Below are positions 6,343 to 35,124 of a stretch of DNA of 64,000 bases, in pieces. Under the pieces are notes generated by a model, which saw only the letters and a list, made by a program, of their open reading frames with translations, was not told the DNA's origin and did no database searches. Origin of the DNA: Sedimentisphaerales bacterium (GTDB lineage Bacteria > Planctomycetota > Phycisphaerae > Sedimentisphaerales > SM23-30); NCBI GenBank assembly GCA_016934515.1, contig JAFGSR010000168.1:34521-98520 (forward strand), written 5' to 3'. Each line of letters starts with the position of its first letter. Position 1 is the first letter of the stretch. The translations under genes were made by a program, and so were the position numbers.

Positions 6343-6373
6343 CGGCTGCTTAAAGGGGGTGTTTTTGAAAAAA

Positions 6374-6389: not shown

Positions 6390-6502
6390 GTTTTTGCCAT
6401 TTATTTTATTTTTTTCTTGCCATGCAGAATATTTTTTTTTGTTTCGTGTATTGTTTAACTGTTCAGATTTTTCTGACCAGTTTTTTTTTTTAGGAGTTCG
6501 TG

Positions 6503-6703: not shown

Positions 6704-6706
6704 TTT

Positions 6707-10260: not shown

Positions 10261-10350
10261 GCCTCGCCTTTTGGTTGAGTTGATTCTGTTGAGTTGCGGT
10301 AAGTGAATAAAGTGGACGAAATTTAATATTGAAACTTTAGGAGTAAAATA

Positions 10351-11076: not shown

Positions 11077-11088
11077 GGTCTGGGCAGC

Positions 11089-11463
11089 ATGACTGATTTA
11101 CTGAAAACAGGTTCCGACTGGTTGGGAAGCATGATGAAAACTCATGCTTCTCAGTCAGTAGTTTATTGGCGGGATGTGAATTCAGTAACCGTCGATGCAA
11201 CGTTGGGCCGCACGTTTTATGACGATGTGGACGGTAATGGTTTTGCGGTTAAATCACACACTACGGATTTTATTATAGATACCGACGATCTGCTATTAAA
11301 CAGCGTTAAGATTGAGCCTGAAGTTGGTGACTTGATAAAAGTAACTAGAGCTGACCGGGTGGATGTTTTTGAGGTGAGCAGGCTTTCGGATAGTTGTTGG
11401 AATTACAGCGACGCTTATGCTCAGTTTTTTCGCATTCACACCCGTTTGATTGACACTGAATAG
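11089..11463 (+). CDS. Phage head-closure/neck-like protein
   Basis: Position and size. Confidence 0.45.
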   Translation: MTDLLKTGSDWLGSMMKTHASQSVVYWRDVNSVTVDATLGRTFYDDVDGNGFAVKSHTTDFIIDTDDLLLNSVKIEPEVGDLIKVTRADRVDVFEVSRLSDSCWNYSDAYAQFFRIHTRLIDTE

Positions 11464-11468
11464 GATGA

Positions 11469-11711
11469 TTGCTTATGTGTGAGCTTTACGAAAAACATTG
11501 TAAGCAGGCTTTTGCAAATATAAGTGAACAGTTGGGCCGGATAGATGAGTCGCTTCGCGGCAACGGCAAGCCGGGATTAAACGCCAGAGTGGACAGTCTG
11601 GAGAAGTCCCGTAACGCTGAAGACAAAAGCCGGTCAAAGTTCTTGTGGATGATTACGGGGTCGATTGTGACTATGGCTTCTGGTTATCTCTGGCAGAAAT
11701 TTATTGGTTAA
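11469..11711 (+). CDS. Small phage protein with coiled coil and C-terminal TM helix (holin/XhlA-like topology)
   Basis: FLWMITGSIVTMASGYLWQKFIG C-terminal hydrophobic segment. Confidence 0.4.
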   Translation: MLMCELYEKHCKQAFANISEQLGRIDESLRGNGKPGLNARVDSLEKSRNAEDKSRSKFLWMITGSIVTMASGYLWQKFIG

Positions 11712-11714
11712 AAA

Positions 11715-12137
11715 ATGGCAAAGTCAATAGACATAGCGGATGCGATTGTTGTGACGTTGAACGGTCACGTTTTCAGCCCGATCTTTACTGCGGTCAGAAA
11801 GTTAGTGCCGGTTTGGGATATAAAAGACCTGAAGACCTTACGGGTGACGGTTGTACCGATTGACGTTGAAAAAGAACGCCAGAGCCGGTCAGCTTTTAAG
11901 CGGGAATACAATATCGACATTGGTGTGCAAAAGAAAGTCAGTAACGACGAGTCTGAGGTTCCGCCGCTAATGACACTGGTTGAAAGTATTGACGATTTTA
12001 TTTCAGGTGCAGTGTTGGCGGGCGTAACTGATGTTGTTTTTTTCAAGAGCCATGTGCTCCAGCTTTCGGCGGAGCATCTAATGGAAGACCGGGTTTTTTC
12101 CAGTGTTGTGAGATTGACGTACTTACGTATTTCGTAA
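11715..12137 (+). CDS. Phage minor tail/completion protein
   Basis: Position and size within tail module. Confidence 0.45.
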   Translation: MAKSIDIADAIVVTLNGHVFSPIFTAVRKLVPVWDIKDLKTLRVTVVPIDVEKERQSRSAFKREYNIDIGVQKKVSNDESEVPPLMTLVESIDDFISGAVLAGVTDVVFFKSHVLQLSAEHLMEDRVFSSVVRLTYLRIS

Positions 12138-12154
12138 AGAGCCGGAGTTGAATT

Positions 12155-12409
12155 ATGAATAATGTTATTGCACGGAAAATTGCCGTTACTGCCAGTTATG
12201 CCGCACTTTCGTCTAGTAGTGAGGTGGTGACAGTAACGCTGTCAGCCTTAACGTCCAACAGCCATGATGTTTATCTTGAGGGCGATACCGGGGACGATGT
12301 GCCGTTGATAGCAGGCGAATGGCATACCTTGAAAAGTGTTGACCTGAGCAGAGTCAAGATCAAGGGGACGGTTGGCGATTATGTGTCGATCATCGGAGGT
12401 ACATGGTGA
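12155..12409 (+). CDS. Hypothetical phage protein
   Basis: ORF within collinear tail module, overlaps next gene. Confidence 0.5.
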   Translation: MNNVIARKIAVTASYAALSSSSEVVTVTLSALTSNSHDVYLEGDTGDDVPLIAGEWHTLKSVDLSRVKIKGTVGDYVSIIGGTW

Positions 12410-13044
12410 TGCCGTATTCAGTAAGTTCAAGCAGCGGTGGTACACCGGCGGGTGAGAATACTCAGTTGCAGTATAATAATTCCGGAGCGTTTGGAGCTTC
12501 GGCAAACCTTACGTTTGGGTCTGATATTCTCACGCTGGCGGGTACGCAGAACATCACGGGTCAGTTGAACGCTGATAATCTGCGGCTGGACGGCAATACG
12601 TTGTCAGTTACCAACGAGAATGGCAATCTTGTTCTTGCTCCAAACGGGACAGGGATTGTCAGTTTAACCGGCACGCAGACCATCACGGGGCGGTTGAACG
12701 TTGATAATCTTCGCCTGGATGGTAATACGTTGTCGAGTTTGTCTGGTGATTTATTGTTGTCAGCAGAGTCGGGCTACATAAAAAGTGTTGATAAGCAGTT
12801 GCAGCTTTCTCGTATTGATAGTTCTCCTGTCAAAATTGAGAATAATGGTGAGAGTGGTGCGTTGATAGATTTTGCCGGGGAATCAAGCAGCAGTACTGAA
12901 ACGCCAGTTACTACGTATGGAGTTGGAGCAGTTTCAGGGACAGTTTCAGGTCCAACCTCCGGTTGTTGGTCATGCGAATACATGTTACAAGTAGAGATCA
13001 ATTCTTCAACGTGCTTCATACCGGCATACGTCGAAGGTAATTAA
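12403..13044 (+). CDS. Tail fibre-like protein with internal duplication
   Basis: Repeated GTQxITGxLNxDNLRLDGNTLS unit. Confidence 0.55.
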   Translation: MVMPYSVSSSSGGTPAGENTQLQYNNSGAFGASANLTFGSDILTLAGTQNITGQLNADNLRLDGNTLSVTNENGNLVLAPNGTGIVSLTGTQTITGRLNVDNLRLDGNTLSSLSGDLLLSAESGYIKSVDKQLQLSRIDSSPVKIENNGESGALIDFAGESSSSTETPVTTYGVGAVSGTVSGPTSGCWSCEYMLQVEINSSTCFIPAYVEGN

Positions 13045-13063
13045 GTAAGGAGAGAATGTAATA

Positions 13064-13522
13064 ATGCTGTATCTTAAAAATAGCAAAGAAATCGGCGAAG
13101 CGTTAGAGGCGACTGGAGTCCTGAAGGATAAGATTCTGGTGGATGTGGGTTGCGGGTCTGGCGGCCTGATGCAAGCAGTGAAGGACAAGGGTGTTACGGT
13201 AAAAGGGATCGAGTTGTATGAGAGTGCGGTGGCGAAGTGTGCCGAGAAAGGTCTTGATGTAACACATGCCGATGCCGGTCAGGTTGGAGTAAGCCTTCCT
13301 GTGGGCGATGTGTATTTGCTCGATGTAAACGACCCGGCATGGATGAGCAACGTTCTGCTCAAGATACCTGCTGGCACAACAGTAATTTTTGGGCAGTATC
13401 GCGTCGGCAGCGAAGCTGCGAAATTTGTTGAGGCTCAGGTTAAACTTCGGCCCACCAAAACCACCCGCAAGATACTGGTAATGTCGGACGGCTTGGAAGT
13501 TCTAACAATTATCGAGAGGTAG
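13064..13522 (+). CDS. SAM-dependent class I methyltransferase-like protein
   Basis: VDVGCGSGGLMQAV motif I and VKGIELYESAVAKC motif II. Confidence 0.75.
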   Translation: MLYLKNSKEIGEALEATGVLKDKILVDVGCGSGGLMQAVKDKGVTVKGIELYESAVAKCAEKGLDVTHADAGQVGVSLPVGDVYLLDVNDPAWMSNVLLKIPAGTTVIFGQYRVGSEAAKFVEAQVKLRPTKTTRKILVMSDGLEVLTIIER

Positions 13523-13524
13523 GC

Positions 13525-13818
13525 ATGGACTACAGCGAGCAAAGAAAATATTTGGCCGATCAATTATCGAATGAAAATCCGGAGGAGCATTTAGTGGCTG
13601 CGATTGAGTTGATTGATTGCTTATTGCTGGAGCAAGACAAGAAAACACCTGCTTCCAATATTACAGCTAAAATGATCGGCGATTCTCTGGATGCTTTATC
13701 GACAATGAAGCAAGCGTGTGACAAAGCACAGATGTGTCGGGCTGACCATGGAATAATTGATAATTGTGTGGCTTGTCTGAGAAAAGCGATTGATGAGTTA
13801 AAGAAATGCTCCGGATAG
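13525..13818 (+). CDS. Hypothetical phage protein
   Basis: ORF in collinear module. Confidence 0.5.
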   Translation: MDYSEQRKYLADQLSNENPEEHLVAAIELIDCLLLEQDKKTPASNITAKMIGDSLDALSTMKQACDKAQMCRADHGIIDNCVACLRKAIDELKKCSG

Positions 13819-14330
13819 GCTGTACAAATACTTTTTTCGATAAGCCGAAGGTCATTAATGCCGTGGGCCGGGCAACCCGGAAAGTACTGTCGAAGTTTGG
13901 TGCTTATGTTCGACGGACGGCAAAGACGAGCATCCGTAAAAGGAAAAAGGTTTCTGCTCCCGGCCAGCCGCCTGCGAGTCATACGGGCCGTCTGAAAAAG
14001 TTAATATTTTTCGCTTACGATCCCATAAAAGCATCTGTAGTGATCGGCCCGGCGTTGGGCAACATGATTTCGTTTAACGGCAGCGGTAAGCCGGTTCGAG
14101 GCACGGTCCCGGAAACTCTGGAGTATGGTGGTCGGATAGGGACGTTAGTTGGAAAAAGAGTTGATGCCGTATGGTGCAAATGGAGCCGAGTGGATTTAAG
14201 AAATAAGCGAAGGTACAAAAAAACAAAAATGATTTTTTCGGATATTAAGGCGAGGCCGTATATGAACCCGGCCTTTGAAAAAGAAAAACCTAAGTTGCCG
14301 CTGATGTGGCAGGATTCGGTAAGGAGTTAA
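13806..14330 (+). CDS. HK97 gp10-like tail component
   Basis: Basic N-terminus, KRKKVSAPGQPPASHTGRLKKLI, VVIGPALG. Confidence 0.6.
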   Translation: MLRIGCTNTFFDKPKVINAVGRATRKVLSKFGAYVRRTAKTSIRKRKKVSAPGQPPASHTGRLKKLIFFAYDPIKASVVIGPALGNMISFNGSGKPVRGTVPETLEYGGRIGTLVGKRVDAVWCKWSRVDLRNKRRYKKTKMIFSDIKARPYMNPAFEKEKPKLPLMWQDSVRS

Positions 14331-14333
14331 AAA

Positions 14334-14780
14334 ATGTCTGATAATTTTAAGCTCGGAATGAATGCGGTGGCGTATTACGGGACAGCGGGTACATACACAC
14401 CGGCCACGATGACGGCACTCACTAACGTGCGTGATGTAAATCTGAATTTTGAAACCGGTGAGGCGGATGTTACCACTCGTGCTAATAGCGGGTGGCGGGC
14501 AACGGCGGCGTCGCTGAAGGAATGTACGGCGGAGTTTGAAATGGTCTGGAAGCCGGGTGATGCCGGGTTCGAGGCACTCAAGGCGGCGTGGCTTGCTTCT
14601 TCTGAGATTGCCATGGCGTTTCTGTCGGATGCTTACGATGAAGATAATGCTGAGGGTCCGACCGGTGACTGGACAATCACTAATTTTAGTCGCAGTGAGC
14701 CTCTGGAGGAGGCAATCATCGTGAACGTGACGGCAAAAATCAGCTTGTTTAGTGCATGGTTCGACAGCGGAGAAAGTTAA
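14334..14780 (+). CDS. Phage tail tube protein
   Basis: VRDVNLNFETGEADVTTRANSGWRATA pattern typical of tail tube proteins. Confidence 0.7.
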   Translation: MSDNFKLGMNAVAYYGTAGTYTPATMTALTNVRDVNLNFETGEADVTTRANSGWRATAASLKECTAEFEMVWKPGDAGFEALKAAWLASSEIAMAFLSDAYDEDNAEGPTGDWTITNFSRSEPLEEAIIVNVTAKISLFSAWFDSGES

Positions 14781-14851
14781 TCGGGCTGGTTTGGCTGGTT
14801 GAGAAAAATATCAAAAATAGAGAAATGGTATGGTTTGGTTTTATGAAATAG

Positions 14852-15328
14852 TTTAAAGACTCAAAAGATAAAGAATGGGAAATATCGCTTACCATTGGCT
14901 CGGCCAGGCGGACGCTGGACTTGACCGGCATTAATTTGCTGGAACCTGAGTCCGGCGATCCGCCGGTGCTTACCCGTCTGGGTACGGACGAAATGATGCT
15001 GTGCGATGTGATTTACAGCTTGTGTAAGACGCAGGCGGATGTGAGCGGTATTTCTGACGAAGATTTCGGCTTGCGGTTGGGCGGCGATGCAATTTTGCAC
15101 GCTCAGGAGGCGTTTTATGAGGAGCTGATTGATTTTTTCCGGCAGCGGGGGAGGCCCGACAGGGCGAAGGCCGTGGAAAAACAGAGAAGGTGGATAGTTC
15201 TGGCGGTGGACAAAGTGACAACGGTGATCGAAAAGCTGGACCTCGAAGCGGAAGTGGAGCGGGTGGGAGCGGAGTTGGATCAAGAGCTTGGCGAACTGTG
15301 TGGGAGCTTGCCGGAATTGTCGGAGTAA
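14852..15328 (+). CDS. Tail assembly chaperone-like protein (first ORF)
   Basis: Open frame FKDSKDKEWEISLTIGSARRTLDLTGINLLEPESG... after TAG at 14849; called ORF starts at TTG 14921. Confidence 0.6.
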   Translation, partial: FKDSKDKEWEISLTIGSARRTLDLTGINLLEPESGDPPVLTRLGTDEMMLCDVIYSLCKTQADVSGISDEDFGLRLGGDAILHAQEAFYEELIDFFRQRGRPDRAKAVEKQRRWIVLAVDKVTTVIEKLDLEAEVERVGAELDQELGELCGSLPELSE

Positions 15329-15573
15329 ATCCGAACCCGCTGACCTTGCGGGAATTACTGTGGATGGCGGAGGCAAACGCCCGTACCCGTTGGCAGCATA
15401 CCTCGAACCTTCTGGCAATGATGGCCAACGTCAATGCGACCAAAAAAAGTAAGAAGTTTAAGCCGAGCGATTTTAATCCGTTTGAGAATAAGAACAGCGA
15501 TGCTGTTCTTATTACCAAGGACAATATCGGCTTGTTGAAAAGTAAATTTATTGGCGGGGCAAAAGCCCCCTAA
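15190..15573 (+). CDS. Tail assembly chaperone-like second ORF (-1 frame relative to the first)
   Basis: LAGIVGVNPNPLTLRELLWMAEANAR...KSKKFKPSDFNPF; a GTG at 15298 is an alternative start. Confidence 0.55.
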   Translation: MDSSGGGQSDNGDRKAGPRSGSGAGGSGVGSRAWRTVWELAGIVGVNPNPLTLRELLWMAEANARTRWQHTSNLLAMMANVNATKKSKKFKPSDFNPFENKNSDAVLITKDNIGLLKSKFIGGAKAP

Positions 15574-15587
15574 CTGGAGGTATTACT

Positions 15588-16109
15588 ATGGATGTTCTGA
15601 GTAAAATTTTGAAGTGGTTGGATCACAATCGGTATCTGGTAATCGCGTTTGCTTTGGCTGTGGTTGCAATGGCGGGGGTAGTTTCTATGATTGGCTGCGA
15701 GTCAGCTACCATGAGCCTGTTCAACTCAGACGATGGTACGCCGACTGCCAAGGTGGGTCGGGCGGAGTTCAATCGTCAGGTTATCACCGGCGAGAAAAAC
15801 TTTGCCATTAAACGCATTGAACTTGAGGCTCAGGTTACTGCTTTTAACGAGGAGGTTGCGGCTTTCAATAAGCAGGCTGAGGCAGGCTCAGAAGACCTTG
15901 ACCGTCAGGACGAATTCCGACAGGAGATTATGAATACAGTGGCTCTGGTGGCAACTCAGGCGGCTGAGGGTACTCTTAATCCTGTGTCCCTGATACCTCT
16001 GGGCATCGGGATTTTTGGTGGGTTCATGGGTCTTGGTTTAGCTGGTGATAATCGTCGCAAGGATGGGGTGATTACTGACCTGAAAGCAAATCCGCCTGCC
16101 GTGACGTAA
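15588..16109 (+). CDS. Phage membrane protein, two hydrophobic segments
   Basis: N-terminal VIAFALAVVAMAGVVSMIGC and C-terminal glycine-rich hydrophobic segment. Confidence 0.5.
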   Translation: MDVLSKILKWLDHNRYLVIAFALAVVAMAGVVSMIGCESATMSLFNSDDGTPTAKVGRAEFNRQVITGEKNFAIKRIELEAQVTAFNEEVAAFNKQAEAGSEDLDRQDEFRQEIMNTVALVATQAAEGTLNPVSLIPLGIGIFGGFMGLGLAGDNRRKDGVITDLKANPPAVT

Positions 16110-16129
16110 AAAAAAGAAGGATGTGTTAA

Positions 16130-18475
16130 ATGCCCAGTAGCACCGGAGTACGGGCTGGTAAAGCCTACGTTGAGGTCTTTGCGGACGATAGCCGCTTAGT
16201 ACGGGGGCTGCGTGCGTCTGAGCGGCGAGTTCGGATGTTCGGCGTGAAGATCCAAGCTATCGGTACTCAGATGATGGCGTTTGGTACAATGGCTGCCCTG
16301 CCACTAGCGGGGGCAGCCAAGGCGTTTGCCGACTTCGAGCAGCAGATGGCCAATGTTTCGACGATGCTTGACGATCCTGATAAGTGGATGCCGAACTACA
16401 GCAAAGAAATCAAAAAAATGGCCAAGGACTACGGTGAGTCAACTGAGGCGTTGGCCGGTGGTCTTTACGACATACTATCTGCGTCGATTCCGGCGGAGCA
16501 GGCGATTAGTGTTCTGGATGTGGCGGTCAGGGCGGCGAAAGCGGGCATGACTGACACGGCTACATCGGCGGATGCGATTACCACGATGCTCAATTCTTAT
16601 GGCCTCTCTGCTGATCGGGCGGCGGATGTTTCTGATTTACTGTTCAAAGTGGTCAAGCGGGGTAAAACTACTTTTGCGGAGCTGGCTCCGTCGATTGGTA
16701 TGGTGGCGAGTGTTGCTGCTTCTGCTAATGTTCCACTGGAGGAACTTGGAGCAGGGTTGGCGGTGATGACTCGAAGCGGTGTGAGAACTGAGCGCGCGAT
16801 TACTGCCATGAACGCGATTATCATGTCTTTTTTGAAGCCGACCGATGAAGCTGCTGCGTTAGCCAAGAAGTTCGGTGTTGAGTTGAATTCGGCAACGATC
16901 AAGACTGAAGGGTTGCAGGGTGCTTTTGCAAAAATCGCTTCGTTGCCGCCTGATATAATCGCAAATATTTTCCCGAATGTCAGAGCGATTCGTGGTATCG
17001 TTCCGGCGTTGAAAAACATGACCGGCTTTGTCGAAGATTTAGGGCAGATGAAAAACCGGGCCGGTGCTGCGGATGCTGCTTTTAAGAAGATGACGGCAAC
17101 GCTGATGTTTCAGCTTAACAAGATCAAGCAGCAGTTTATTGCGGTGTTTCGAGCGGCGGGTCAAGCTCTGGCTCCGTCGATTATTGCTGTGGGTAAGGCG
17201 ATTGGTAAAGCGGCGGATGCAACAACGGCATGGATTGGCAGGCATCGGGGATTGGTAACTGCTGTCGGGTTGACCGTTGCGGCTATTTTGACGATGGGGG
17301 CAACGATGCTGTTGACCGGCGTACTTATCAAGGCCTTGGCTTTCAGTCTGGGATTTCTCGGTAAAGCGATTGTTGTGCTGAAAGTTACAGTTAAAGCATT
17401 TGTTCTGACGATGAAAATTTTAGGCAAGTCGTTGCTACTGTTTACTTCTCCGATTGGCGTGGTTGTTGCTGCGGTTATCGGTTTGGGGGTCGCTTGGTTG
17501 ATCGTAAGCGGTAACATGGCCAAGGCGATAGGGTGGCTGAGTAAAAAGTTCGGTTCGCTCAAGGATGATATGGTAAAAACTTTCGGCGGGATTGGCGATG
17601 CTTTGGCGGCGGGTGATTTGTCGCTGGCGATGAAAATCCTGTGGCTCATGCTGAAAATGGAATGGGCAAAGGGGATTAACGGCCTGAAGGTGTTGTGGTT
17701 TAATTTCAAATCGTGGATGGTTGACCGGTGGTATGACTTGGTGGCTGGTGCACAAACGGCCATGCACGGAATCGAAGTGGCATGGATCGAAACTGTGTCG
17801 TTTTTAAAAAAAACCTGGACAACTTTTTCAAAGTGGCACGCCTTGGCTGTGCAATCCACGGCGGGGGCGATGGCAAAGGCATGGGAATGGGCTAAAAATA
17901 AAATGAGCGGCGGTACGGAAGAAGACTTACAATTCCGTATGAATTACATCGACAAAGATGTTAATGATGCGATAGATAAAATTAACAAAGAGTTCGATGA
18001 TAAGTTAGCTGGACTTGAAACACAGCGAGAAGGTCAGCGCGCCGAGTCGAAAGCTCTGCATGAAGGAACGTTGGCTGCTATTGAGCAGGAGGCTCAGGCA
18101 AAGCTTGGCGAGATGCGAAAAGAGTTCAACGTTAAAAATGCTGCTAATATGACTGAGCTGGAGAAGGCCAAACAGGAGTGGCAGGCGGCGTTGGACGAAG
18201 CTCGCCAAAAGAGGGCGGCTCTGGACACCGGTGATGGTAAAGCTCCTGAAGGCGGCGGCATACAGGGTAAAATCAACGATGCTCTTGCCGCACTTGGGGG
18301 CGGGGTGGGTGCGGTGAAAAAAGGTTCGGTGTCTGGAACTTTCAATGCGTTTGCGGCGGCGGGCATGGGGACCGGCAACGCCATGGACCGAACGGCTAAG
18401 GCTACTGAGCAGACTGCGAAGAACACTGAAAACTTGTTGCAGGAGGCCCGGTTTGGCGGGTTAAAATTCACATGA
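16130..18475 (+). CDS. Phage tail tape measure protein
   Basis: 781 aa; FADFEQQMANVSTML near N-terminus, long helical and hydrophobic segments. Confidence 0.9.
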   Translation: MPSSTGVRAGKAYVEVFADDSRLVRGLRASERRVRMFGVKIQAIGTQMMAFGTMAALPLAGAAKAFADFEQQMANVSTMLDDPDKWMPNYSKEIKKMAKDYGESTEALAGGLYDILSASIPAEQAISVLDVAVRAAKAGMTDTATSADAITTMLNSYGLSADRAADVSDLLFKVVKRGKTTFAELAPSIGMVASVAASANVPLEELGAGLAVMTRSGVRTERAITAMNAIIMSFLKPTDEAAALAKKFGVELNSATIKTEGLQGAFAKIASLPPDIIANIFPNVRAIRGIVPALKNMTGFVEDLGQMKNRAGAADAAFKKMTATLMFQLNKIKQQFIAVFRAAGQALAPSIIAVGKAIGKAADATTAWIGRHRGLVTAVGLTVAAILTMGATMLLTGVLIKALAFSLGFLGKAIVVLKVTVKAFVLTMKILGKSLLLFTSPIGVVVAAVIGLGVAWLIVSGNMAKAIGWLSKKFGSLKDDMVKTFGGIGDALAAGDLSLAMKILWLMLKMEWAKGINGLKVLWFNFKSWMVDRWYDLVAGAQTAMHGIEVAWIETVSFLKKTWTTFSKWHALAVQSTAGAMAKAWEWAKNKMSGGTEEDLQFRMNYIDKDVNDAIDKINKEFDDKLAGLETQREGQRAESKALHEGTLAAIEQEAQAKLGEMRKEFNVKNAANMTELEKAKQEWQAALDEARQKRAALDTGDGKAPEGGGIQGKINDALAALGGGVGAVKKGSVSGTFNAFAAAGMGTGNAMDRTAKATEQTAKNTENLLQEARFGGLKFT

Positions 18476-19242
18476 GTGTAACGGTTGAAGAACAATTTGG
18501 AAGTCCACAGGTTCGCAAAGATTCCGCAACTCGAAAGTATATTATTTCAGGTACGGCTGATGAAATGGCAGCGGAGGCAGCCCTGCTTGCGGAGGCGCCG
18601 ACTATTTACTTATATATGCCTGTGCAGGATTACGCCGTTGATCCGCTGACTAACGATAAGTGGGTGGGGACTGTGCAGTATGGGGTGTTAGCTGTTGCTT
18701 TGCAGGACGAGGCCTTTGAGTTCGATACCACCGGCGGCACGAAGCATATCACCCAGAGCTTAGGGACGATAGGTGCTTACGCTCCGGCAGGTTATACGGC
18801 CCCGGACTATGGTGGGGCTATTGGAGTCAACGGCGAGGAGGTTCAGGGCGTTGATATAACCGTGCCTGCGTTTAAGTTCAGCTCGCATCATATAATTGAA
18901 AATGCCAGTGCTAACGCTTTGGTTTATCGCAACTTGACCGGCTGTGTGAACAATGCGACTTTCATGGGGTTTGCCGCCGGTGAAGTTTTATTTTTAGGGG
19001 CCAGAGGTGTCGAGCAGCAATCGCCGGAGTGGGGCGTTGATTTTCATTTTGCCGCCGGAGCCAATGCTACCAATTTAATTGTTGGTGACATTACTGTTCT
19101 CGAAAAATACGCTTGGGATTACCTGTGGGTTCGCTACGAAACTGAGGAGGACGTTGCAGCCGGGTCTATTGTTAAACGTCCGGTAGCGGCTTACACCGAG
19201 CGTGTTTATCCGTGGGCGAACTTTGGTCTTTTAGGGATTTGA
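18472..19242 (+). CDS. Phage tail/baseplate protein
   Basis: Position after tape measure, ATG overlaps upstream stop. Confidence 0.55.
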   Translation: MSVTVEEQFGSPQVRKDSATRKYIISGTADEMAAEAALLAEAPTIYLYMPVQDYAVDPLTNDKWVGTVQYGVLAVALQDEAFEFDTTGGTKHITQSLGTIGAYAPAGYTAPDYGGAIGVNGEEVQGVDITVPAFKFSSHHIIENASANALVYRNLTGCVNNATFMGFAAGEVLFLGARGVEQQSPEWGVDFHFAAGANATNLIVGDITVLEKYAWDYLWVRYETEEDVAAGSIVKRPVAAYTERVYPWANFGLLGI

Positions 19243-19247
19243 GCATA

Positions 19248-20411
19248 ATGTTAAAGCGAGTACAACCCGGTGATCGTCTGGAGATTTCGGCTAATGCTTA
19301 CAATGCTTTTGTTGATGCGGCTCAGGCTAATATTGATCGGCAGCTTAGCACTAATTTCAAGGCGGCAACTGGCGGCACAGCTACATCGGTTGTTCAGGTG
19401 CGGAATAATTCCGGGGCGGCTTGTGTGCGGTTTGGGGTGCTGGCGATAGGCACTCCGGTTATCTCGCCAGATGTTGATCTGGTGAAATTCCAGAACGGCG
19501 AGATTGTTTTTGAGGGGTACGCTCCAAGTGATGCTGACGCTGGTTTTTTTGGGATTCTTTTAGAGCCGCTGGCAGATGGCAAAATCGGCAAGGTGGTTAT
19601 CTCCGGTCTGTGTCATTGTCAGATTGATGTGCAGGCTGAGTCTCACGATTATGCGGAGGTAGTGGATGGTGAGAGTGGCTATCTGCAAAGTAATGTTGTC
19701 GGGTCGGCAACGATTTTATGGAAAGAGTCGGGCACGGGAACTAAGTGGGCCATGGTCAAGCTGGGTGGCGGCAGCAACGGTAACGGCAACGAATGGGCCG
19801 ATATTCCGGTAGTTAATAATTCAGCGGAAACGATCCCGGCATGTAGCTTTGTGGAGTTGTCTGGTTGGAGCGAACCGGATTTGGCGTTTGAGATTATTAA
19901 GCCGACCTCAAGTCATCTTGATTTGCATGAGTATGCGATTGTGGGACAAGAAATAGCCGTAGGTCAGATAGGGAGAGCTTATTCTGACGGTTACGCTACG
20001 GTAAGTCTTAGTAGTGTGGCTCATTGTCCTATAGGCCAGATCATCGGCCCGGTGAAAAATTATTATTATGGCCATGGTCATCAGCAGGGTTGGCGGGTTG
20101 TAAAGTATGTTTCTACCGCTTATCCGTACACGGCGGTAGTTCAGTATGTGGGGGCGGCTTTTCCGAGATTGTTTGTGATTCACGACACCGAAGCAGAGGA
20201 CGGCAAATATCAGATCAAGGAAAGGTTTTGGAGTATAGAAAACGACCGCTTTGAAGATATATGGTCTGACGATCCAGCAACAACTTATGGCCAGACTATT
20301 GAAACGTCTGGGCATAGTTTGTCGGTCGGTGATTATGTATATACTATAGCTCCTAGAAGTGCTACCGGTGTTTATCGGATTGCACTTTTAGATTATGCGA
20401 TGTGGCACTGA
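19248..20411 (+). CDS. Phage tail-associated structural protein
   Basis: ATG 19248 (MLKRVQPGDRLEISANAYNAFVDAAQ). Confidence 0.5.
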   Translation: MLKRVQPGDRLEISANAYNAFVDAAQANIDRQLSTNFKAATGGTATSVVQVRNNSGAACVRFGVLAIGTPVISPDVDLVKFQNGEIVFEGYAPSDADAGFFGILLEPLADGKIGKVVISGLCHCQIDVQAESHDYAEVVDGESGYLQSNVVGSATILWKESGTGTKWAMVKLGGGSNGNGNEWADIPVVNNSAETIPACSFVELSGWSEPDLAFEIIKPTSSHLDLHEYAIVGQEIAVGQIGRAYSDGYATVSLSSVAHCPIGQIIGPVKNYYYGHGHQQGWRVVKYVSTAYPYTAVVQYVGAAFPRLFVIHDTEAEDGKYQIKERFWSIENDRFEDIWSDDPATTYGQTIETSGHSLSVGDYVYTIAPRSATGVYRIALLDYAMWH

Positions 20412-21520
20412 TTATGGGTTTTTCTGTATTACCTTTAGATACCACCAATGACTCAGTTATTATTTCAGCGGCTTACAATGAGCTGGTGGATGCCACTAAC
20501 GAGTTTGCCAACATTTGGGGTGGGCCGGATGCTTATACCAAAATCGAAAGCCCGCAAGTCATTGACCGAAGCATATTCTCTAGCTTGAAAAACGCAGCCA
20601 AGGTTAGAGCTTATAATTACGCCTACATTGCTGTTGACCCGCCGGATAATTTTACAAGAGTTCCGTGGGCGGATATTTGTCAGGAGTTGTTTGGCACTAG
20701 TGATTGGCCGGTTCGTAGTGGCAACAAGCAGAAAATTATCAAGGCTGAAATGAATGACATTTACGAAGTAATCTGCTGGTCAAATAATAAATGGTACAAG
20801 GGTGCTATTGCGGCGGGGAGTGGTTGGGGCAGACTGACAACGGGTTATGTATATCAGCCGGAATTTGGCGAAGAACCGACCATTCCCCCGGAATGGGCTT
20901 ATGATACCAGGGAGGCTGCTGCTGATGCTTATGATGCTTACATAGCAGAGCCATATATCACAACGGGAGGTTCTCCGTATGATAATTATTTTTACGGTGG
21001 GTCTTCCGGCACAACTTTTGTTTGGAATAATCCGTATGGTCCAGAAAAAAAATATGCAGTCGTTACCGACGTTCCCGGTGGACGCACTAAAGACGAGCAG
21101 ACCATTTGTCGTATCCTGACGCCAAATTGTGCGGACATTGCCAGTGTGGTAGCTGAGGGTGTTGTGGGAAATTATTACGGTTATTCCGTAGAAGGTCCCG
21201 GTATTTACGAGCCTAACGCTCACGCATGGTCAGCTCAGTTGTACTTTGGTACTGACACGCCGCCAGACAACTTTGAGGAGTTTCGTGAATATGGTGTTGA
21301 ATGGGGAATAGCTTCTGGTCTTGGCCAGCCAGAAGCAAATAAAGCTACTGTTTTGTTAAGTAACGAGATTCCGATGAATACTTTTTTGTTTGTTCGCGTT
21401 GCTGGCAGGGGTCAAATTTACGGCGATTTAGACGATGTTGCATGGGGCAATGTAACTCCATGGCGAACATCTTTTTATGTGACTGATTTTTGGTTTCAGC
21501 TCCGGTGGGAATATAGCTGA
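20402..21520 (+). CDS. Phage structural protein, N-terminus related to the preceding gene product
   Basis: ISAAYNELVDATNEF resembles ISANAYNAFVDAAQAN; likely start ATG 20414. Confidence 0.5.
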   Translation: MALIMGFSVLPLDTTNDSVIISAAYNELVDATNEFANIWGGPDAYTKIESPQVIDRSIFSSLKNAAKVRAYNYAYIAVDPPDNFTRVPWADICQELFGTSDWPVRSGNKQKIIKAEMNDIYEVICWSNNKWYKGAIAAGSGWGRLTTGYVYQPEFGEEPTIPPEWAYDTREAAADAYDAYIAEPYITTGGSPYDNYFYGGSSGTTFVWNNPYGPEKKYAVVTDVPGGRTKDEQTICRILTPNCADIASVVAEGVVGNYYGYSVEGPGIYEPNAHAWSAQLYFGTDTPPDNFEEFREYGVEWGIASGLGQPEANKATVLLSNEIPMNTFLFVRVAGRGQIYGDLDDVAWGNVTPWRTSFYVTDFWFQLRWEYS

Positions 21521-21672: not shown

Positions 21673-22687
21673 CCATCCACCCCCACACGTGTGGGGACAA
21701 TGACACAGCATCCCCCGGCACCCCTGGACATACGGTTCACCCCCACACGCGTGGGGACAATGCTGTCCACTGGTTTTACCAAACTCACACGCCGGTTCAC
21801 CCCCACACGCGTGGGGACAATCACGCCTCGATAATCTTAATCAGACCATCTAATCGGTTCACCCCCACACGCGTGGGGACAATTTGCCGTACCGCTTTGC
21901 GACTCCGCCGGATTCGCGGTTCACCCCCACACGCGTGGGGACAATTAAACGCTTCCGGAATAGTAATTGCGGGTATATCGGTTCACCCCCACACGCGTGG
22001 GGACAATGTAATTGTAGGGCTGCTGATTAAAGGCAACGGTCGGTTCACCCCCACACGCGTGGGGACAATCTCAAAGCGTGCATCCAACGCACAACAATTT
22101 ACGGTTCACCCCCACACGCGTGGGGACAATGACGCCTTTTTAAGCCGATATTTGCGATTGCTGCGGTTCACCCCCACACGCGTGGGGACAATTATTTGCG
22201 GCGACTGCTTAGAGGTGATGAAAACCGGTTCACCCCCACACGCGTGGGGACAATGAAACCCATCGGTCCCCGGCCCGATATTATTACGGTTCACCCCCAC
22301 ACGCGTGGGGACAATACACCGGGCGGGAAAGTTTTCCAGAGATATCGGCGGTTCACCCCCACACGCGTGGGGACAATGCCTCCATCTACAACTGTAATCT
22401 CGAACCAGTCGGTTCACCCCCACACGCGTGGGGACAATTTGCATCTTTGACGCCTGAATCTGTGGATCTTATCGGTTCACCCCCACACGCGTGGGGACAA
22501 TGGGTGTTCCGACCGCTAGCGGGCGTTCGTGTTTTCGGTTCACCCCCACACGCGTGGGGACAATGCCGGCGGCGTCCAGGTAGATATAAATATTGGCCGG
22601 TTCACCCCCACACGCGTGGGGACAATGTTATCAAAATCAAACAACAGCGCGGCATGCTCGGTTCACCCCCACACGCGTGGGGACAAT
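21673..22687 (-). CRISPR. Type I-E CRISPR array: 17 repeats, 16 spacers (31-34 nt)
   Basis: 29-bp repeat CGGTTCACCCCCACACGCGTGGGGACAAT (minus strand ATTGTCCCCACGCGTGTGGGGGTGAACCG); starts at 21673 (degenerate), 21733, 21793, 21855, 21917, 21979, 22041, 22102, 22164, 22226, 22287, 22349, 22410, 22473, 22536, 22598, 22659. Confidence 0.98.
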
Positions 22688-22735
22688 ACCAAAGTATTGT
22701 ATTTTTAGAACATAACAAACACAAGATATATACCT

Positions 22736-23044
22736 TTATTTAACTTCTGAAGATGATAAATTCTTTTTTAAAGATAATTTCTTGATTAGCGTGAGTCCCT
22801 CCATTTCAGTCAAAATATAACGGCTATCGCCAAGCGAACGCCATTGATAGCCCTGCGCACAGGGATAATCCCATATTTGTAAAATATAACCCTGCTTACG
22901 TTTTTCCACGGCTTTTTCCCAGAGGATATCCCGTATTCTGACCGTTGGATTACCCAGAAATACGCCGCTGATCGGTTCGATCAGCCATCGAGACAGCTCG
23001 CCCTTCAAGCTCGCCGGAACGTTCTGTAAGATCATCACTAGCAT
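22736..23044 (-). CDS. cas2: CRISPR-associated endonuclease Cas2e
   Basis: MILQNVPASLKGELSRWLIEPISGVFLGNPTVRIRDILWE. Confidence 0.95.
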   Translation of the reverse strand: MLVMILQNVPASLKGELSRWLIEPISGVFLGNPTVRIRDILWEKAVEKRKQGYILQIWDYPCAQGYQWRSLGDSRYILTEMEGLTLIKKLSLKKNLSSSEVK

Positions 23045-23855
23045 CGAGCACCTCCGCTATATCCGGTAAAATTTTTTGCATAAGTTTTAACTCCCGAATT
23101 TTTTCTCTACATAGCGTCCGTGCTCTGCGTTCCACTTCTATGGTTCTTTGGGCCGTCTGAAATGCCACCGGGATCACCAGATCCGTTCTGTACAGATCCG
23201 CAATATCATAGACAAAGCTGAGCATTTTCCCGGTGTGAATAAAACCGATAGCCGGAGAATAGCCCGCCGACAGAATCGCCGCATGACATATTCCATAAAG
23301 ACATGCGCTGGCCGCCGAGAGCGAGCGGTTAACCGGATCGGCATAATCCCACTTATCCTGATCGTAATTACGACCATCCCAGCGAATCCCCCAGGTTTTG
23401 GCATTTTCTTCATAGGCAGCCCGCACACGATAGCCCTCTTTACCCCGTAAGGTTTCCAGAGACGTATCTTCCGGAATGATTTCCGGAAATCGCTTCTGAT
23501 ACATTCGCCGGGCCACCGCCAAACGCTGCTTTTCATCAACATACAATCGGGCCTGTTGTAATAAACGGTGGCTGGAATGTGTTCCGCCGGTACCGTGGGC
23601 ATAAAGCCGGGTGCCGTCCTGCCCCGTCCAACAGATCATACAGTTATTTCCCGCCAGCGCCTTAAAAGCAGCGTGCGTAACGGAACTGCCCGGCCCCAGC
23701 ATCACCAGAGAAAGTTGATCGATGGGGATGGGCATTTTCCCGGATTTATCACTGAACGTCAGAGAACCGGCGGTCCGGTCCAGCTTGCCCATTTCCAGGT
23801 ACAGATGACTCCAACGGTCCTGGAATTTGGGAATTTCATGTAAATTTCTCGCCAT
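22950..23855 (-). CDS. cas1: CRISPR-associated endonuclease Cas1e
   Basis: IDQLSLVMLGPGSSVTHAAFKALAGNNCMICWTGQDG, SAASACLYGICHAAILSAGYSPAIGFIHTG; start at MARNL (23855). Confidence 0.96.
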   Translation of the reverse strand: MARNLHEIPKFQDRWSHLYLEMGKLDRTAGSLTFSDKSGKMPIPIDQLSLVMLGPGSSVTHAAFKALAGNNCMICWTGQDGTRLYAHGTGGTHSSHRLLQQARLYVDEKQRLAVARRMYQKRFPEIIPEDTSLETLRGKEGYRVRAAYEENAKTWGIRWDGRNYDQDKWDYADPVNRSLSAASACLYGICHAAILSAGYSPAIGFIHTGKMLSFVYDIADLYRTDLVIPVAFQTAQRTIEVERRARTLCREKIRELKLMQKILPDIAEVLDASDDLTERSGELEGRAVSMADRTDQRRISG

Positions 23856-23948
23856 GTTTCTACCCTCCAAATAAAGATGCATCCAATGAATCCTTACTAC
23901 TAGAAAAAGAAACGCCTATTCACTTACCAAAGAACCTCTCCCCCGGCC

Positions 23949-24719
23949 TCACTGCACCGGGGCAATCGATAATAATCCAAAGCCAAACGCCTTGCCCGGA
24001 CCAATGCCCCTGACCAATGTTTCGCGAAAAGCATTGGGATTAATAATTTCAAGTATGCCCTCGTATCGAGCGGATCGGAGCCGCTGTCCCTTTCCTGCCT
24101 CATTTGTTTTGTTCATATACACATATCCCGGCTGGATAATCATATCATCACCGAGAGTAAACCCACACTTTTCACCCTTATGAACCAGCCATTCAAAAAG
24201 CTCTTCATTTGGCACCGAAACGCGTTTTCCATGCCGTCCTTTCTTGGACGTCCGTTCCTCGCTTGTAAGTGACTGTTTTTCTTGCTTACTGATAGTATCG
24301 ATCTTTTTTGTTGGATTCGCCATCAATCGAAAACGGAATCTCTGGCCATTCTCGATCGATGGAGTATATTTTTTCACTTTGTATGGAGCCGCCAGAAGGA
24401 AACCGGCATTATGAAAGGCATAATCCCAATCCGGTTCAATAGCCGACAAGACAAGTATCACCACATTTCCAGCCGGTTGCGGATCAATACGAAACAGAAA
24501 ACCGTTTTCCGTTCCACGCTTGACATGAACCTGCCCTTCGCCGAAATTCGTGGGATTGTAGGGCTTGAGAAAATGTTCATCGTTCCGGACACGTTCTTTC
24601 GACGGAAACGCCATGCACAACCGCTGATGCACACGGTATAAATTCCGCAGCCACAATCGTCCCGGTCGTGGACGATCGGGATTGCTCCCCGTATCGATGA
24701 GCAATGTCGAGATAAACAT
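23949..24719 (-). CDS. cas6e: Cas6e crRNA endoribonuclease
   Basis: RNLYRVHQRLCMAFP near N-terminus; C-terminal RGIGPGKAFGFGLLSIAP. Confidence 0.95.
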   Translation of the reverse strand: MFISTLLIDTGSNPDRPRPGRLWLRNLYRVHQRLCMAFPSKERVRNDEHFLKPYNPTNFGEGQVHVKRGTENGFLFRIDPQPAGNVVILVLSAIEPDWDYAFHNAGFLLAAPYKVKKYTPSIENGQRFRFRLMANPTKKIDTISKQEKQSLTSEERTSKKGRHGKRVSVPNEELFEWLVHKGEKCGFTLGDDMIIQPGYVYMNKTNEAGKGQRLRSARYEGILEIINPNAFRETLVRGIGPGKAFGFGLLSIAPVQ

Positions 24720-25825
24720 TATTCCACCTCCTCTGCCGAGAGTCTGCGCCGCCTTGTCTGTATTGAACGGAACATGATTATTTCTCTCCGCTTCTTAATG
24801 ATCTCGTCGCGCCATTGCGGCTCTTCGGGGTTGATGCGGTCCATGCCCATACCAAGACCATATTCGAGCATGGTGACGGCGTCATGGCAGAGTCGGCAAA
24901 GAGATCGCAAGTCGTCATGGGTTTCATCCCCACCCGCCCGTCGATATGTGATATGTTGCACAGTGGTCGCCGGAGATTTACATAAAACGCATAAGTGATG
25001 GTCGTGGTCAAGCCGTTCAGATCGAGCTTGACGATAGGCGGAGTTGACATAGTTTGCCCTGGGCCGTGAGGGTGCTGGCGTATGGTGCTGAATCGGTTGC
25101 GACTCCAGAGCCACATCGCCATCCCTACCCACGTGCAGTGAACCGCCAATAACGAAGCGAGCTTCATGCGCCGGCGGGTCAAAACTCACAGGAACATCAT
25201 ACCAGATTTCCGCATCCGCAGGGGCTTCGGTCTGTGAGGCCGACGGTCGCCAGTCACAAAGGTAATCAAGCGTTTGCGGAGCGGCGTCCTGCCTGCAACG
25301 TTTGCGCCAAGGGACCGCTTTCAGAGCAGTGAGTACATCAGGATAATCACCGCCTTTGGACTCCAAAAGAGGACGCGACGGCGGACAAGATTTGCGGCCC
25401 AGATAGAGCGGCCAGCATGGCGCTGCCAAAGCATCTGAAAGTTTGCCAATCAAGAAAGGCTCGCCCTGTAGAACTACCAGAAAGGAGGCGTCGCAAAGAT
25501 ACTCCCGACGTGTGAGCATAGCGCCGGATTTAGATTCTCCCTTGGCTGTGCGCATCTGCATTTTGGCTCCAACCGTGTGATAATCCCACCATCTAATACC
25601 AGCCCGGTCGATACGCACACCCATCGTCAAGGCGGCCAGTCTCGGCAACCATTCGACGGAGGCTTCGGCACGAGTGATACCTAACGCTGCACAGAGTATC
25701 CCGATAACCGCCGACTTGGTCGGGGCGGGTCCGGTTCGCCGCACGACGAATTTACTTTGGTGATCGCCCCAGGCCTGCATCGGACCTTCGAGGCGAAGAT
25801 AAATTGTATTTATAGTCATCAGCAA
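24719..25825 (-). CDS. cas5e: Cas5e with C-terminal HNH endonuclease domain (Cas5-HNH fusion)
   Basis: Residues 1-~245 Cas5e (YLRLEGPMQAWGD, RRTGPAPTKSAVIGILCAALG, LTRREYLCDASFLV, LYLGRKSCPPSRPL); residues ~255-350 HNH (CVLC-N8-HITYRRAGGDETHDDLRSLCRLCH); TAATG junction with cas6e. Confidence 0.93.
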   Translation of the reverse strand: MLMTINTIYLRLEGPMQAWGDHQSKFVVRRTGPAPTKSAVIGILCAALGITRAEASVEWLPRLAALTMGVRIDRAGIRWWDYHTVGAKMQMRTAKGESKSGAMLTRREYLCDASFLVVLQGEPFLIGKLSDALAAPCWPLYLGRKSCPPSRPLLESKGGDYPDVLTALKAVPWRKRCRQDAAPQTLDYLCDWRPSASQTEAPADAEIWYDVPVSFDPPAHEARFVIGGSLHVGRDGDVALESQPIQHHTPAPSRPRANYVNSAYRQARSERLDHDHHLCVLCKSPATTVQHITYRRAGGDETHDDLRSLCRLCHDAVTMLEYGLGMGMDRINPEEPQWRDEIIKKRREIIMFRSIQTRRRRLSAEEVE

Positions 25826-27006
25826 ACCTCCGGATTGACAATTTCTTTCTGTACTTCGCTCCAGTCAAAGCCAATCGTTCTGATGACGGCGGGAATCAAC
25901 TCGTCCAGCGATTTGATCTTTTCTCCTTCGAGTAAAATTTCACTTTTATTTTCCACAACCTGCAAAGCATGTCGATTATTAGGTGAGAACCAGAAACGCT
26001 GTTGTGGCTTTCCATAGCCGATTTCCATATCGTAAACATATTGGCTCAGTTGGGCGACACTCTGCTTGATAAGATCGCGTTCACCATGTTCGACCGGATT
26101 AGCAAAGGCGTTGGCGTAGCTAACGGGATTACCTTTCTTCTTGATTTCTATCAAGATACCATCAGGATGGTTATGAGCGGCATGGCTGTTCTGTTTGCCT
26201 GAAGGATTAGTCTTGGCAGCACCATACAAGAAAGCACCGACGGTGTGGGCGGCTAGTTGTTCATTACCGTCTAGGTTTCTAAGAAGTTGTTCCCAGTGAA
26301 TGGCGAAATACTTGTAGAAGCATGCCGAGGCGTAGAGGGCCTCGCCGATATGGGCACCGCCTGCGTCTTCACCAGGAACATCATCGGCGGCAACGAAATA
26401 ATCCACTTCCGGTCGCGCTTCATGGGTACTGATAGCATGAGCAACCTGCGCCGCAGCTTCGACGGTTAAATTCAATCCTTTCCAGACGCCTTTGCCGTTA
26501 TCTCCGCCCTTAGGTTCGAGCATCCGGCCAAAAAGAGCCATGTCAGGAATATAAACATGCTCGGCGATCTGATGGGCAAACTGAGTGGCGGTTTCCTTGT
26601 CGGACTTATTCTCTTTAAATAGTTGCTTCATTTTATCAATCGCCTTATTGCTGACATACACGATCCCGGCGCTCTTGTCATCATCGGCGGCGATGTCCGC
26701 TTCGGCCTTCGCTTTTCTTTTTTTCGCTTTAGGAGCAATGCCGCAAAGCTCAAGTACTTTCATCGCCCGCTTGAAATCTTCACTGTCGCCGTTTGCACCG
26801 GCAATTACCTGTGCCAGCCGCCGCGTTCGCAATCCGCCAAGCAAAGGTTTGAATTCCTTGCTAATGCGGATGCTACGCTTAATACATTGGCTGGAGATGC
26901 GAGAGCGCAACACGCCTCCGAAATAGCAGGTCTTTGGGGCCCCCAGATCGTCCCGGTTAAGATTGGCCGGGCTGTGATTTTGAACCATGTGCATTTCAAT
27001 TAACAT
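25819..27006 (-). CDS. cas7e: Cas7e (Cse4/CasC) Cascade backbone
   Basis: MVQNHSPANLNRDDLGAPKTCYFGGVLRSRISSQCIKRSIR. Confidence 0.97.
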   Translation of the reverse strand: MLIEMHMVQNHSPANLNRDDLGAPKTCYFGGVLRSRISSQCIKRSIRISKEFKPLLGGLRTRRLAQVIAGANGDSEDFKRAMKVLELCGIAPKAKKRKAKAEADIAADDDKSAGIVYVSNKAIDKMKQLFKENKSDKETATQFAHQIAEHVYIPDMALFGRMLEPKGGDNGKGVWKGLNLTVEAAAQVAHAISTHEARPEVDYFVAADDVPGEDAGGAHIGEALYASACFYKYFAIHWEQLLRNLDGNEQLAAHTVGAFLYGAAKTNPSGKQNSHAAHNHPDGILIEIKKKGNPVSYANAFANPVEHGERDLIKQSVAQLSQYVYDMEIGYGKPQQRFWFSPNNRHALQVVENKSEILLEGEKIKSLDELIPAVIRTIGFDWSEVQKEIVNPEVC

Positions 27007-27500
27007 CAGAGTCTCCTTTCAAGGTATTGTAAATATTGTTCGGCCCATTGACGCCGTTTGTTTGGACGTCGCCAGATGGAAATATCATCAGTCAATCTTA
27101 CCCAGTCGAGCTTGAGTTCACTGGATGCAATAGTATCCAGAGCCCATTGCAGCACCGGTTCGATGCGGTCAAATGGCAGCATAAGCAATTCGTCGAATTT
27201 ACGTCGGCGGCGATTCGCTTCCCTGTTATCCTTCACTCGACAGCGGGCGAGTTGCCCCGCCAACAGTGCCCCGGCATCATGCTCAATGGGACAATAAGCG
27301 TAAAGTTTGGCGATCAGCCAGGCTGCTCCACGCCAGGGCGTTTTGGGATCTTTCTGTCTCAGCGGCCACCATAGGCCCGCAAAGAGATCGAAGGCATCCA
27401 CCGACTCATCCAGACTTCGACCTGAATGGCTGCGCAGCAAACTCAGATCGCCGTTTTGTAAACTACTCAAGACTTGGATATATCTCTCGGTTGCGATCAT
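27006..27500 (-). CDS. cse2: Cse2 (CasB/Cas11e) small subunit
   Basis: Position between cas8e and cas7e; W.LIAKLYAYCPIEHDAGALLAGQLARCR. Confidence 0.9.
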   Translation of the reverse strand: MIATERYIQVLSSLQNGDLSLLRSHSGRSLDESVDAFDLFAGLWWPLRQKDPKTPWRGAAWLIAKLYAYCPIEHDAGALLAGQLARCRVKDNREANRRRRKFDELLMLPFDRIEPVLQWALDTIASSELKLDWVRLTDDISIWRRPNKRRQWAEQYLQYLERRL

Positions 27501-28924
27501 GCATCGGCTCCTTTCTTGCGACCAGCGCGGTCCGTTGCGATTATTTTGGGTTTCATATTGGGCTTGACGGCAGCAATCTCACGACGCCTCTGTACTTCAA
27601 CGGTTGTATAGCCGGGTGCGAGCGATTGTGCGACAACGGACATCATGGGGCTATAATCCCCGGCAACCTGCTCCCATGCCTCCGGCTCACCAGTCAATAA
27701 TGCGTGTATCTTGTCAAAAACCTGCGTCTCGATATGAGGTCTAACTGAATCAATCATTGGACGAATCTCTGCATGTTTGCGTGATGATTTCTTAGGTTTA
27801 CAACGGCTTATAAGCTTGCTGTTTTCTTTGCTCCAATAATCAATCTTCTCAATAGCCTTTTGAGGATTGAAAGAATCCGTATTCACATTAAAAGATACTT
27901 CGCATTTTTTTGCTTCGATGTATTTATCATTTTGGACAGTAGCAAAACTAACAGCAATAAACCTATGAGGACTAATCGCATTCTTTTGTATAAGTGCTCC
28001 TATCACTAACTTAGTCCATCGCCCAGAAGCTGCATCATAAGCTTTTAATGAATCGTTTGGCTTTAGAACGTTTTTGTTGTCATAAATAACATGTGGATCG
28101 TCCCAGTTCCTTCTCTCATCAACAGACTCTGCTTTTGTACTGCCGATGCCAGCAAATACCGATTGCTTTATGAGTTTTGCTTTGACTCCACAGGCAATGC
28201 AGTTTTCCTCGTCTGTTTTGGGAGTATCCAGCCATACTCTCCTAGGCAGCCATGTAAGCCCAGTCAGCAATGCCACCTTCCCTTTTGCTGGAAGCTGAAT
28301 ATCAGGTTTTACCCAGGCAGGTTCCCCAAAATCATTTTGTTTTTGATCTTGCCATGAAAGCAACAATGACTCAAAAAGGCAAGAACCCAAAGGAATAATA
28401 TAGATTGGTGGTTTTGAATTGATGCCCGGTGGTTTACCCCTCCCGCCAGATGTAGCAAATGATGGTAAGCGTAATAAACCTTTAGCGCAACAAGCAGGAC
28501 ACAAACCATTATCTTTATCCTTAGAATGGCAAAAATGATACCAATTTGAACCTGTAGGTATTTCCTGCATCAGATAATTAGCGGTAAGCTTATCAGGTTC
28601 CCCGGTTTTAGCTTGATATTGATAGAACCGCTTTCCATCGCCGAACAGGTTAAAACAATCACGGTTCTCATCGAGTTTGGTGAACCAATCATCTGGAAAC
28701 GACTTCTCGGCGTAGGCGGATACATAGTCAGGTGGATTACCCTTGCACCAATACAATAGCGCCAGTAGAAATCGGAAAATCGCCACACGGTCCATCGGAT
28801 TACTGGCCGCGATTTGGCGAATCCTGTGGGCATCAGTCAATGCTTGAAAAATTCCAACTCGGTCATATTTGCCATTACGATAAAGAACCGGTATCCATTT
28901 CTCATCTAGTAAATTATAGTTCAT
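27497..28924 (-). CDS. cas8e: Cas8e (Cse1/CasA) large subunit
   Basis: MNYNLLDEKWIPVLYRNG...GIFQALTDAHRIRQIAASNPMDRVAIFRFLLALLYW typical of Cse1. Confidence 0.96.
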   Translation of the reverse strand: MNYNLLDEKWIPVLYRNGKYDRVGIFQALTDAHRIRQIAASNPMDRVAIFRFLLALLYWCKGNPPDYVSAYAEKSFPDDWFTKLDENRDCFNLFGDGKRFYQYQAKTGEPDKLTANYLMQEIPTGSNWYHFCHSKDKDNGLCPACCAKGLLRLPSFATSGGRGKPPGINSKPPIYIIPLGSCLFESLLLSWQDQKQNDFGEPAWVKPDIQLPAKGKVALLTGLTWLPRRVWLDTPKTDEENCIACGVKAKLIKQSVFAGIGSTKAESVDERRNWDDPHVIYDNKNVLKPNDSLKAYDAASGRWTKLVIGALIQKNAISPHRFIAVSFATVQNDKYIEAKKCEVSFNVNTDSFNPQKAIEKIDYWSKENSKLISRCKPKKSSRKHAEIRPMIDSVRPHIETQVFDKIHALLTGEPEAWEQVAGDYSPMMSVVAQSLAPGYTTVEVQRRREIAAVKPNMKPKIIATDRAGRKKGADA

Positions 28925-34550: not shown

Positions 34551-34707
34551 TGTAGGAAGTGATGTAGGAAATACCTGGAATTTAGCAAAACATTTATCGG
34601 AAAATATCGGGAAATATTTTGAAAATATTAAAATTGTAGGAAGCGATGTAGGAAGTGCCTAAAAAAGCCGTAAAACAAGTAACTCTAAGCAACAAAATGT
34701 AGGAAGT
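34551..34707 (+). repeat. Five copies of TGTAGGAA(G/A)(T/C)
   Basis: Starts 34551, 34563, 34635, 34647, 34698; two pairs with 12-bp spacing, pairs 84 bp apart. Confidence 0.85.
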
Positions 34708-34780: not shown

Positions 34781-34820
34781 TCCCGAACGCAGCGCTCTAG
34801 CCAAGCTGAGCTACTCCCCG
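34781..34820 (-). pseudogene. 5' half of tRNA-Pro (CGG anticodon), truncated at the anticodon loop
   Basis: Minus strand CGGGGAG-TA-GCTC-AGCTTGGCTA-GAGC-G-CTGCG-TTCGGGA; no 3' anticodon stem or T-arm follows. Confidence 0.75.
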
Positions 34821-35124
34821 TAGCATAATTCCAACAGAGATGATTTTAGCTTATCTGGGTGATTTTGCAAAGAAAAATTGTTGGGTAATTTTTCAGCGTT
34901 TTCGGGGGTCGGGGGTGGGTAAGCAGTCAGATTATGTAACTCTTTTGGAGCAGGCTGCGAAAAGGGCTCAGTGAAAGCCTGGCGGGGGGGGAATAGCCAC
35001 TTTCAAGTTACCCACTAGCGTGGAGGTTTAATCCTGGCTGGGCCAAGGCTGGCCATTTATCTTATCGAAAGTGTATTGGAAATACAGATTCCTATACATT
35101 CAAGTTAGAAATAGCTAAATTCTG

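Follow-up and report, generated by a model that had tools for sequence, protein, structure and literature searches.

The Cas5-HNH variant of type I-E CRISPR-Cas systems was described in 2023 (Science; PMC10910872), several cryo-EM structures of it exist, and the 2025 classification names it I-E2 (PMC12669027). A homologue makes PAM-dependent cuts in double-stranded DNA 3-4 and 8 bp beyond the PAM-distal end and also shows collateral cleavage of single-stranded DNA, and mutation of the HNH domain abolishes editing (PMC10910872). DNA cutting by Cascade itself, without Cas3, has been demonstrated in this closest relative (PMC10910872, PMC11822464), and progressive loss of cas3 from the variant has been proposed (PMC10910872). 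Carriage of the variant by phages is not mentioned in the main texts of the two key papers on it. Here we describe a type I-E2 system that is very probably cargo of a 48-kb temperate-phage-like element integrated in a tRNA-Pro gene of a planctomycete.

The window, that is, the whole stretch of DNA that was analysed, comprises 64,000 nucleotides (positions 34521-98520 of contig C8); the sequence to its left is called L079. The CRISPR-Cas locus has the following features, in window coordinates:

21673..22687, minus strand: CRISPR array, 17 repeats of 29 nt (ATTGTCCCCACGCGTGTGGGGGTGAACCG) and 16 unique spacers of 31-34 nt
22688..22735, minus strand: A+T-rich stretch from cas2 to the first repeat, presumed leader by position and sequence
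22736..23044, minus strand: cas2e (TIGR01873)
22950..23882, minus strand: cas1e (TIGR03638, 4.6e-110)
23949..24719, minus strand: cas6e (PF08798, TIGR01907; top PDB match 8yb6_B), with a TAATG junction with cas5
24719..25819, minus strand: cas5-HNH, 366 aa, from ATG at 25819 (by mechanical ORF calling, the start is the TTG at 25825)
24875..24991, minus strand: HNH domain, residues 277-315, with C277-x2-C280, H289 and C308-x2-C311-H312 (PF01844 and alignment)
25819..27006, minus strand: cas7e (TIGR01869; top PDB match 8yb6_D, 5.5e-132)
27006..27500, minus strand: cse2/cas11e (PF09485; top PDB match 8yb6_K, 9.3e-30)
27497..28924, minus strand: cas8e, 475 aa (PF09481; top PDB match 8yb6_J, 1.1e-68)

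Judged from its sequence, the ORF at 24719-25825, which is open throughout on the minus strand, is a Cas5e-HNH fusion of type I-E2. The ATG at 25819, which overlaps the cas7 stop, is the likelier start, so that the 368 residues given in a preliminary description of this DNA become 366 and its residue numbers, two too high, shift accordingly (C279, C282, H291, C310, C313 and H314 are C277, C280, H289, C308, C311 and H312). The zinc-finger HNH signature that it had recognized stands, as the four zinc cysteines and two HNH histidines are invariant in 51/51 aligned fusion proteins; in the same alignment, a segment C-terminal to the HNH (TMxEYGxxM...DRIxP...WR...KR) is conserved as well as the HNH domain itself. 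The proposed architecture, a Cas5e with a C-terminal HNH, is borne out by profile searches: residues 5-218 match Cas5 (PF09704, 5.9e-45; NCBIfam TIGR01868, Cas5e, 9.5e-47) and residues 277-315 match HNH (PF01844, 25.8 bits against a cut-off of 21.4, E 1.2e-5). Among PDB entries, the window protein comes closest to CasD of the type I-E Cas5-HNH Cascade (8yb6 and related entries, E 2.7e-126), with a match over the full length, HNH tail included.

Structure prediction agrees. An AF2 model (pLDDT 86, pTM 0.65) is closest to solved Cas5-HNH chains, with 8yha, 8zlu and 8yb6 on top of the fold search and 54-56% identity to the full-length solved chains. The TM-score of 0.6 and rmsd near 8 A against these chains probably reflect uncertain relative placement of the two domains in the model. 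In the chain of the dsDNA-bound structure 9jxs, an alanine occupies the position aligned to H312. An assembly error as the source of the fusion is excluded, because 48 other genomes carry the same full-length fusion. Within a variant that is known but rare, the window protein is well preserved and otherwise unremarkable.

The six other cas genes are intact by their profile matches, as the preliminary description had read them, and the order is cas8e-cse2-cas7-cas5-cas6-cas1-cas2, followed by the leader-like stretch and the array; the TAATG coupling of cas5 to cas6 was found at 24719. The genes cas8e, cse2, cas7 and cas6 form a single operon with cas5-HNH, and the best PDB match of each of the four products is a subunit of the same Cas5-HNH Cascade (8yb6). 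No Cas1 locus other than cas1e was found in the genome. The cas1e gene overlaps cas2 by 95 nt (22950-23044) in a different frame; there is no such overlap in E. coli K-12. The cas-distal repeat of the array is degenerate and resembles a natural array end, while the repeat hairpin is no more stable than shuffled sequences (z -1.2). No spacer targets were found among 50,697 phage records, in IMG/VR for the three spacers tested, or within 84 kb of contig around the locus, and these searches yielded no PAM; nor has the array repeat an exact match in IMG/VR.

A scan of the genome collection gave the 48 other full-length fusions and one canonical Cas5e (L066). A tree of 60 Cas5 proteins intermixes 13 phyla and places the window protein in a pair with one from Armatimonadota (sister, L025; support 95/90). 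Identity of Cas1 does not track that of Cas5: at the locus L018, identity is 70% for Cas5 and 48% for Cas1, and at the locus L053 it is 53% and 62%. This points to an exchange of adaptation and effector modules. The preliminary description had taken the locus for a planctomycete-like member of a rare but established class; the phylum is indeed Planctomycetota, but planctomycetes are common among the relatives found. One planctomycete (G164, 96% complete) has a diverged Cas5 fusion (L008, at L077 3771-4967) with both HNH histidines kept and three of the four zinc cysteines lost. Further peculiarities are a Cas8e of 655 aa with an apparent fusion to Cas11 and a Cas1 extended by a long C-terminal tail; a cas2 was not noticed, and the genome gives no Cas3 HD match. 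The fusion is possibly a second, zinc-free sub-variant.

The element around the cas genes has these landmarks, in window coordinates unless stated otherwise:

C8 21215-21259 (L079 6695-6739), outside the window: attL, overlapping the intact tRNA-Pro
L079 6798 and 6810: two further TGTAGGAA sites at the attL end, from a motif search
1..21520, plus strand: phage module of the same element, from an AAA ATPase to tail-end genes
4047-6158, plus strand: terminase, in the phage module
6707-8203, plus strand: portal, in the phage module
8200-10260, plus strand: head protease/capsid, in the phage module
10351-11076, plus strand: cement protein, in the phage module
14334-14780, plus strand: tail tube, in the phage module
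16130-18475, plus strand: tape measure, in the phage module
29643..33779, plus strand: two secreted-type genes (PEP-CTERM-like; beta-helix/DUF11), between cas8e and attR
34551..34705, plus strand: five arm-like TGTAGGAA sites (34551, 34563, 34635, 34647, 34698), from a motif search
34781..34825, plus strand: attR, a perfect 45-bp copy of the 5' half of tRNA-Pro(CGG)

The element measures 48,086 bp, lies at tRNA-Pro and is bounded by a perfect 45-bp repeat (TCCCGAACGCAGCGCTCTAGCCAAGCTGAGCTACTCCCCGTAGCA; the tRNA-Pro 5' half plus 5 nt), as against shared words of only 11-15 in shuffled sequence. There is no third copy of the repeat, the next best site having 21 mismatches. The intact tRNA-Pro(CGG) in L079 adjoins a tyrosine integrase gene (PF00589; phrog_1, 4.2e-35). 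The motif TGTAGGAA has seven copies in 84 kb, always on one strand and at most 260 bp inside the att cores, for the most part as pairs with a spacing of 12 bp, a pattern seen in 0/1,972 random segment pairs; by sequence, these copies look like integrase arm sites. In a genome of the same genus (G438, L096), an intact tRNA-Pro is followed at once by the counterpart of the window's right flank (85% identity from 35118 on), and 48,086 bp have therefore been inserted; in a genome of the same family (G447, L104), tRNA-Pro likewise stands just before the RsmB gene. The empty site is shown for the right junction only, because the HAD-hydrolase gene that served as marker of the left flank is absent from 12/12 relatives tested and the G438 contig ends 4 nt past the tRNA, its left side uncovered.

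From left to right, the element carries integrase, helicases, primase, terminase, lambda-type portal, head protease/capsid, cement, tail tube, tape measure and tail-end genes, followed on the opposite strand by the array and cas genes, and then by the two secreted-type genes and attR. Several marks of a prophage are present: an integrase and att repeats at a tRNA gene, an empty site (right junction), and packaging, head and tail genes. The cas locus had been described as next to a prophage, which understates the case, as it lies between the attachment sites, inside the element. The PEP-CTERM-like and beta-helix/DUF11 genes are unusual phage cargo, and a tRNA-Met gene also lies inside the prophage (L079 9678-9753). 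Outside the element, the window contains an ORF of 4203 aa (41474-54085).

IMG/VR contains 187 relatives of the element's portal. The best 80 are 54-61% identical to it, and many of these 80 loci keep the same gene order from the terminase to the genes at 18472-20411; a tail-end gene, as second query for related phages, retrieved nothing in IMG/VR. Only one IMG/VR contig (L067) encodes Cas5-HNH, of another clade than the window protein. Its lambda-type portal (1.6e-68) and head-protease genes lie 0.5 kb from the Cas5-HNH operon and divergent to it. Positions 1-3900 of L067 hold gpW-like, portal and head-protease genes, and the cas operon sits at the expected position of the terminase. As a fragment whose terminase is not at the expected place, this contig serves as supporting evidence only for phage carriage. 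Deposited phages and plasmids gave partial matches to the Cas5 part and none covering the HNH, and no portals of the window phage's family (phrog_21) were found near the other 48 cellular Cas5-HNH loci.

Could the CRISPR-Cas system belong to the host chromosome and merely abut a prophage that really ends, on its right, near 21.6 kb? The phage genes do end at 21520, and the cas genes are encoded on the other strand. Between cas8e and attR, the beta-helix and PEP-CTERM-like genes have a host-like look, and GC content, which shows no useful change at the element edges, fails to separate the parts. We nevertheless consider this quite improbable, since the repeat and the arm-like motifs occur at the two outer ends only, with none near 21.6 kb, and since in the same-genus genome the tRNA continues directly into the sequence to the right of 34825, so that everything between is insertion. 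A different possibility is that the cas genes were inserted into a resident, perhaps defective, prophage and are never carried by phage particles. Cas genes are absent from the retrieved flanks of all of the best 80 of the 187 related viral loci, and because of this absence the cargo may be a recent acquisition of this one prophage; the single IMG/VR contig with Cas5-HNH and the lack of an identified lysis gene in the element point the same way. Against this stand the packaging, head and tail genes, which are intact and ordered as in free viral contigs, and the existence of a second phage-like contig with Cas5-HNH, and we regard such an insertion as somewhat unlikely, preferring phage cargo.

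A related question is whether the system works as an ordinary type I-E, with Cas3 supplied from elsewhere and the HNH as an accessory. The locus contains no cas3, contrary to canonical type I-E, and the window no cas3 remnant upstream of cas8e. In the genome, Cas3_C has no match and the Cas3 helicase and HD profiles have sub-cut-off matches only; at 88% completeness and in 253 contigs, however, the assembly could lack a cas3 that the organism has. Full-length Cas3 (HD match >100 bits) is present in the genomes of 5/48 relatives, elsewhere than in the retrieved flanks of the Cas5-HNH operon. Against an external Cas3 speak the homologue, which cleaves without it, and the N-terminal cas3 stubs (about residues 2-75) left in three relatives or their genomes (L025 5599-5805; L035 5496-5708; L073 1094-1291, in the genome of L027), directly upstream of cas8e in L025 and L035. 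In sequence, these stubs match the progressive loss of cas3 proposed in PMC10910872. We consider a supply of Cas3 from elsewhere very improbable indeed. The earlier suggestion of a Cascade that cuts DNA itself gains support from the mechanism of the homologue, by analogy, from the retained HNH and zinc residues and from the failure to find Cas3.

Together, these data suggest a model for a self-cutting Cascade carried by a phage. Cas6e would cut the array RNA, and Cas8e, Cse2, Cas7, Cas5-HNH and Cas6 would form Cascade on the crRNA. By analogy with the studied homologue, this complex would cleave crRNA-matched double-stranded DNA through its HNH domain, without Cas3, while Cas1-Cas2 would add spacers to the array. 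If the element excises and is packaged, as we infer, the whole CRISPR system could spread by its integration. The system probably protects the lysogen, and hence the resident phage, from competing mobile elements.

A type I system without Cas3 is compact and self-sufficient, which would suit a phage: one operon plus its array suffices for full adaptive immunity, with nothing needed from the host. It is about as easy to believe as to doubt that temperate phages in general carry complete Cas3-free Cas5-HNH cargo, help to move the variant between phyla and defend the lysogen against rival mobile elements. If they do carry such systems, they would be one vehicle for the scattered occurrence of the variant across 13 phyla. 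The window, with its exact element ends, offers a natural test case. Phage-borne Cas5-HNH appears to be unreported in the literature that we examined; the context is new, the variant already known.

Phage genomes with complete CRISPR-Cas and array are familiar from ICP1 (type I-F) and other viruses, from which the window differs in its type I-E2 effector and in being a temperate, tRNA-integrated element. Type I-F4 (Cas8-HNH) likewise has an HNH in place of Cas3 in a type I Cascade, but in Cas8 of an I-F system and of separate origin from Cas5-HNH. With canonical type I-E of E. coli, the window shares the Cas8e-Cse2-Cas7-Cas5-Cas6-Cas1-Cas2 order and the repeat type, and differs in the HNH on Cas5 and the absence of cas3. 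The Ca. Cloacimonetes Cas5-HNH Cascade (8yb6, 8yha, 8zlu, 8zp7, 9jxs) has the same five effector genes and the C-terminal HNH on Cas5, and both systems have all zinc and HNH residues and lack Cas3; what sets the window apart is a Cas5-HNH of 54-56% identity, a planctomycete host and a location inside an integrated phage-like element.
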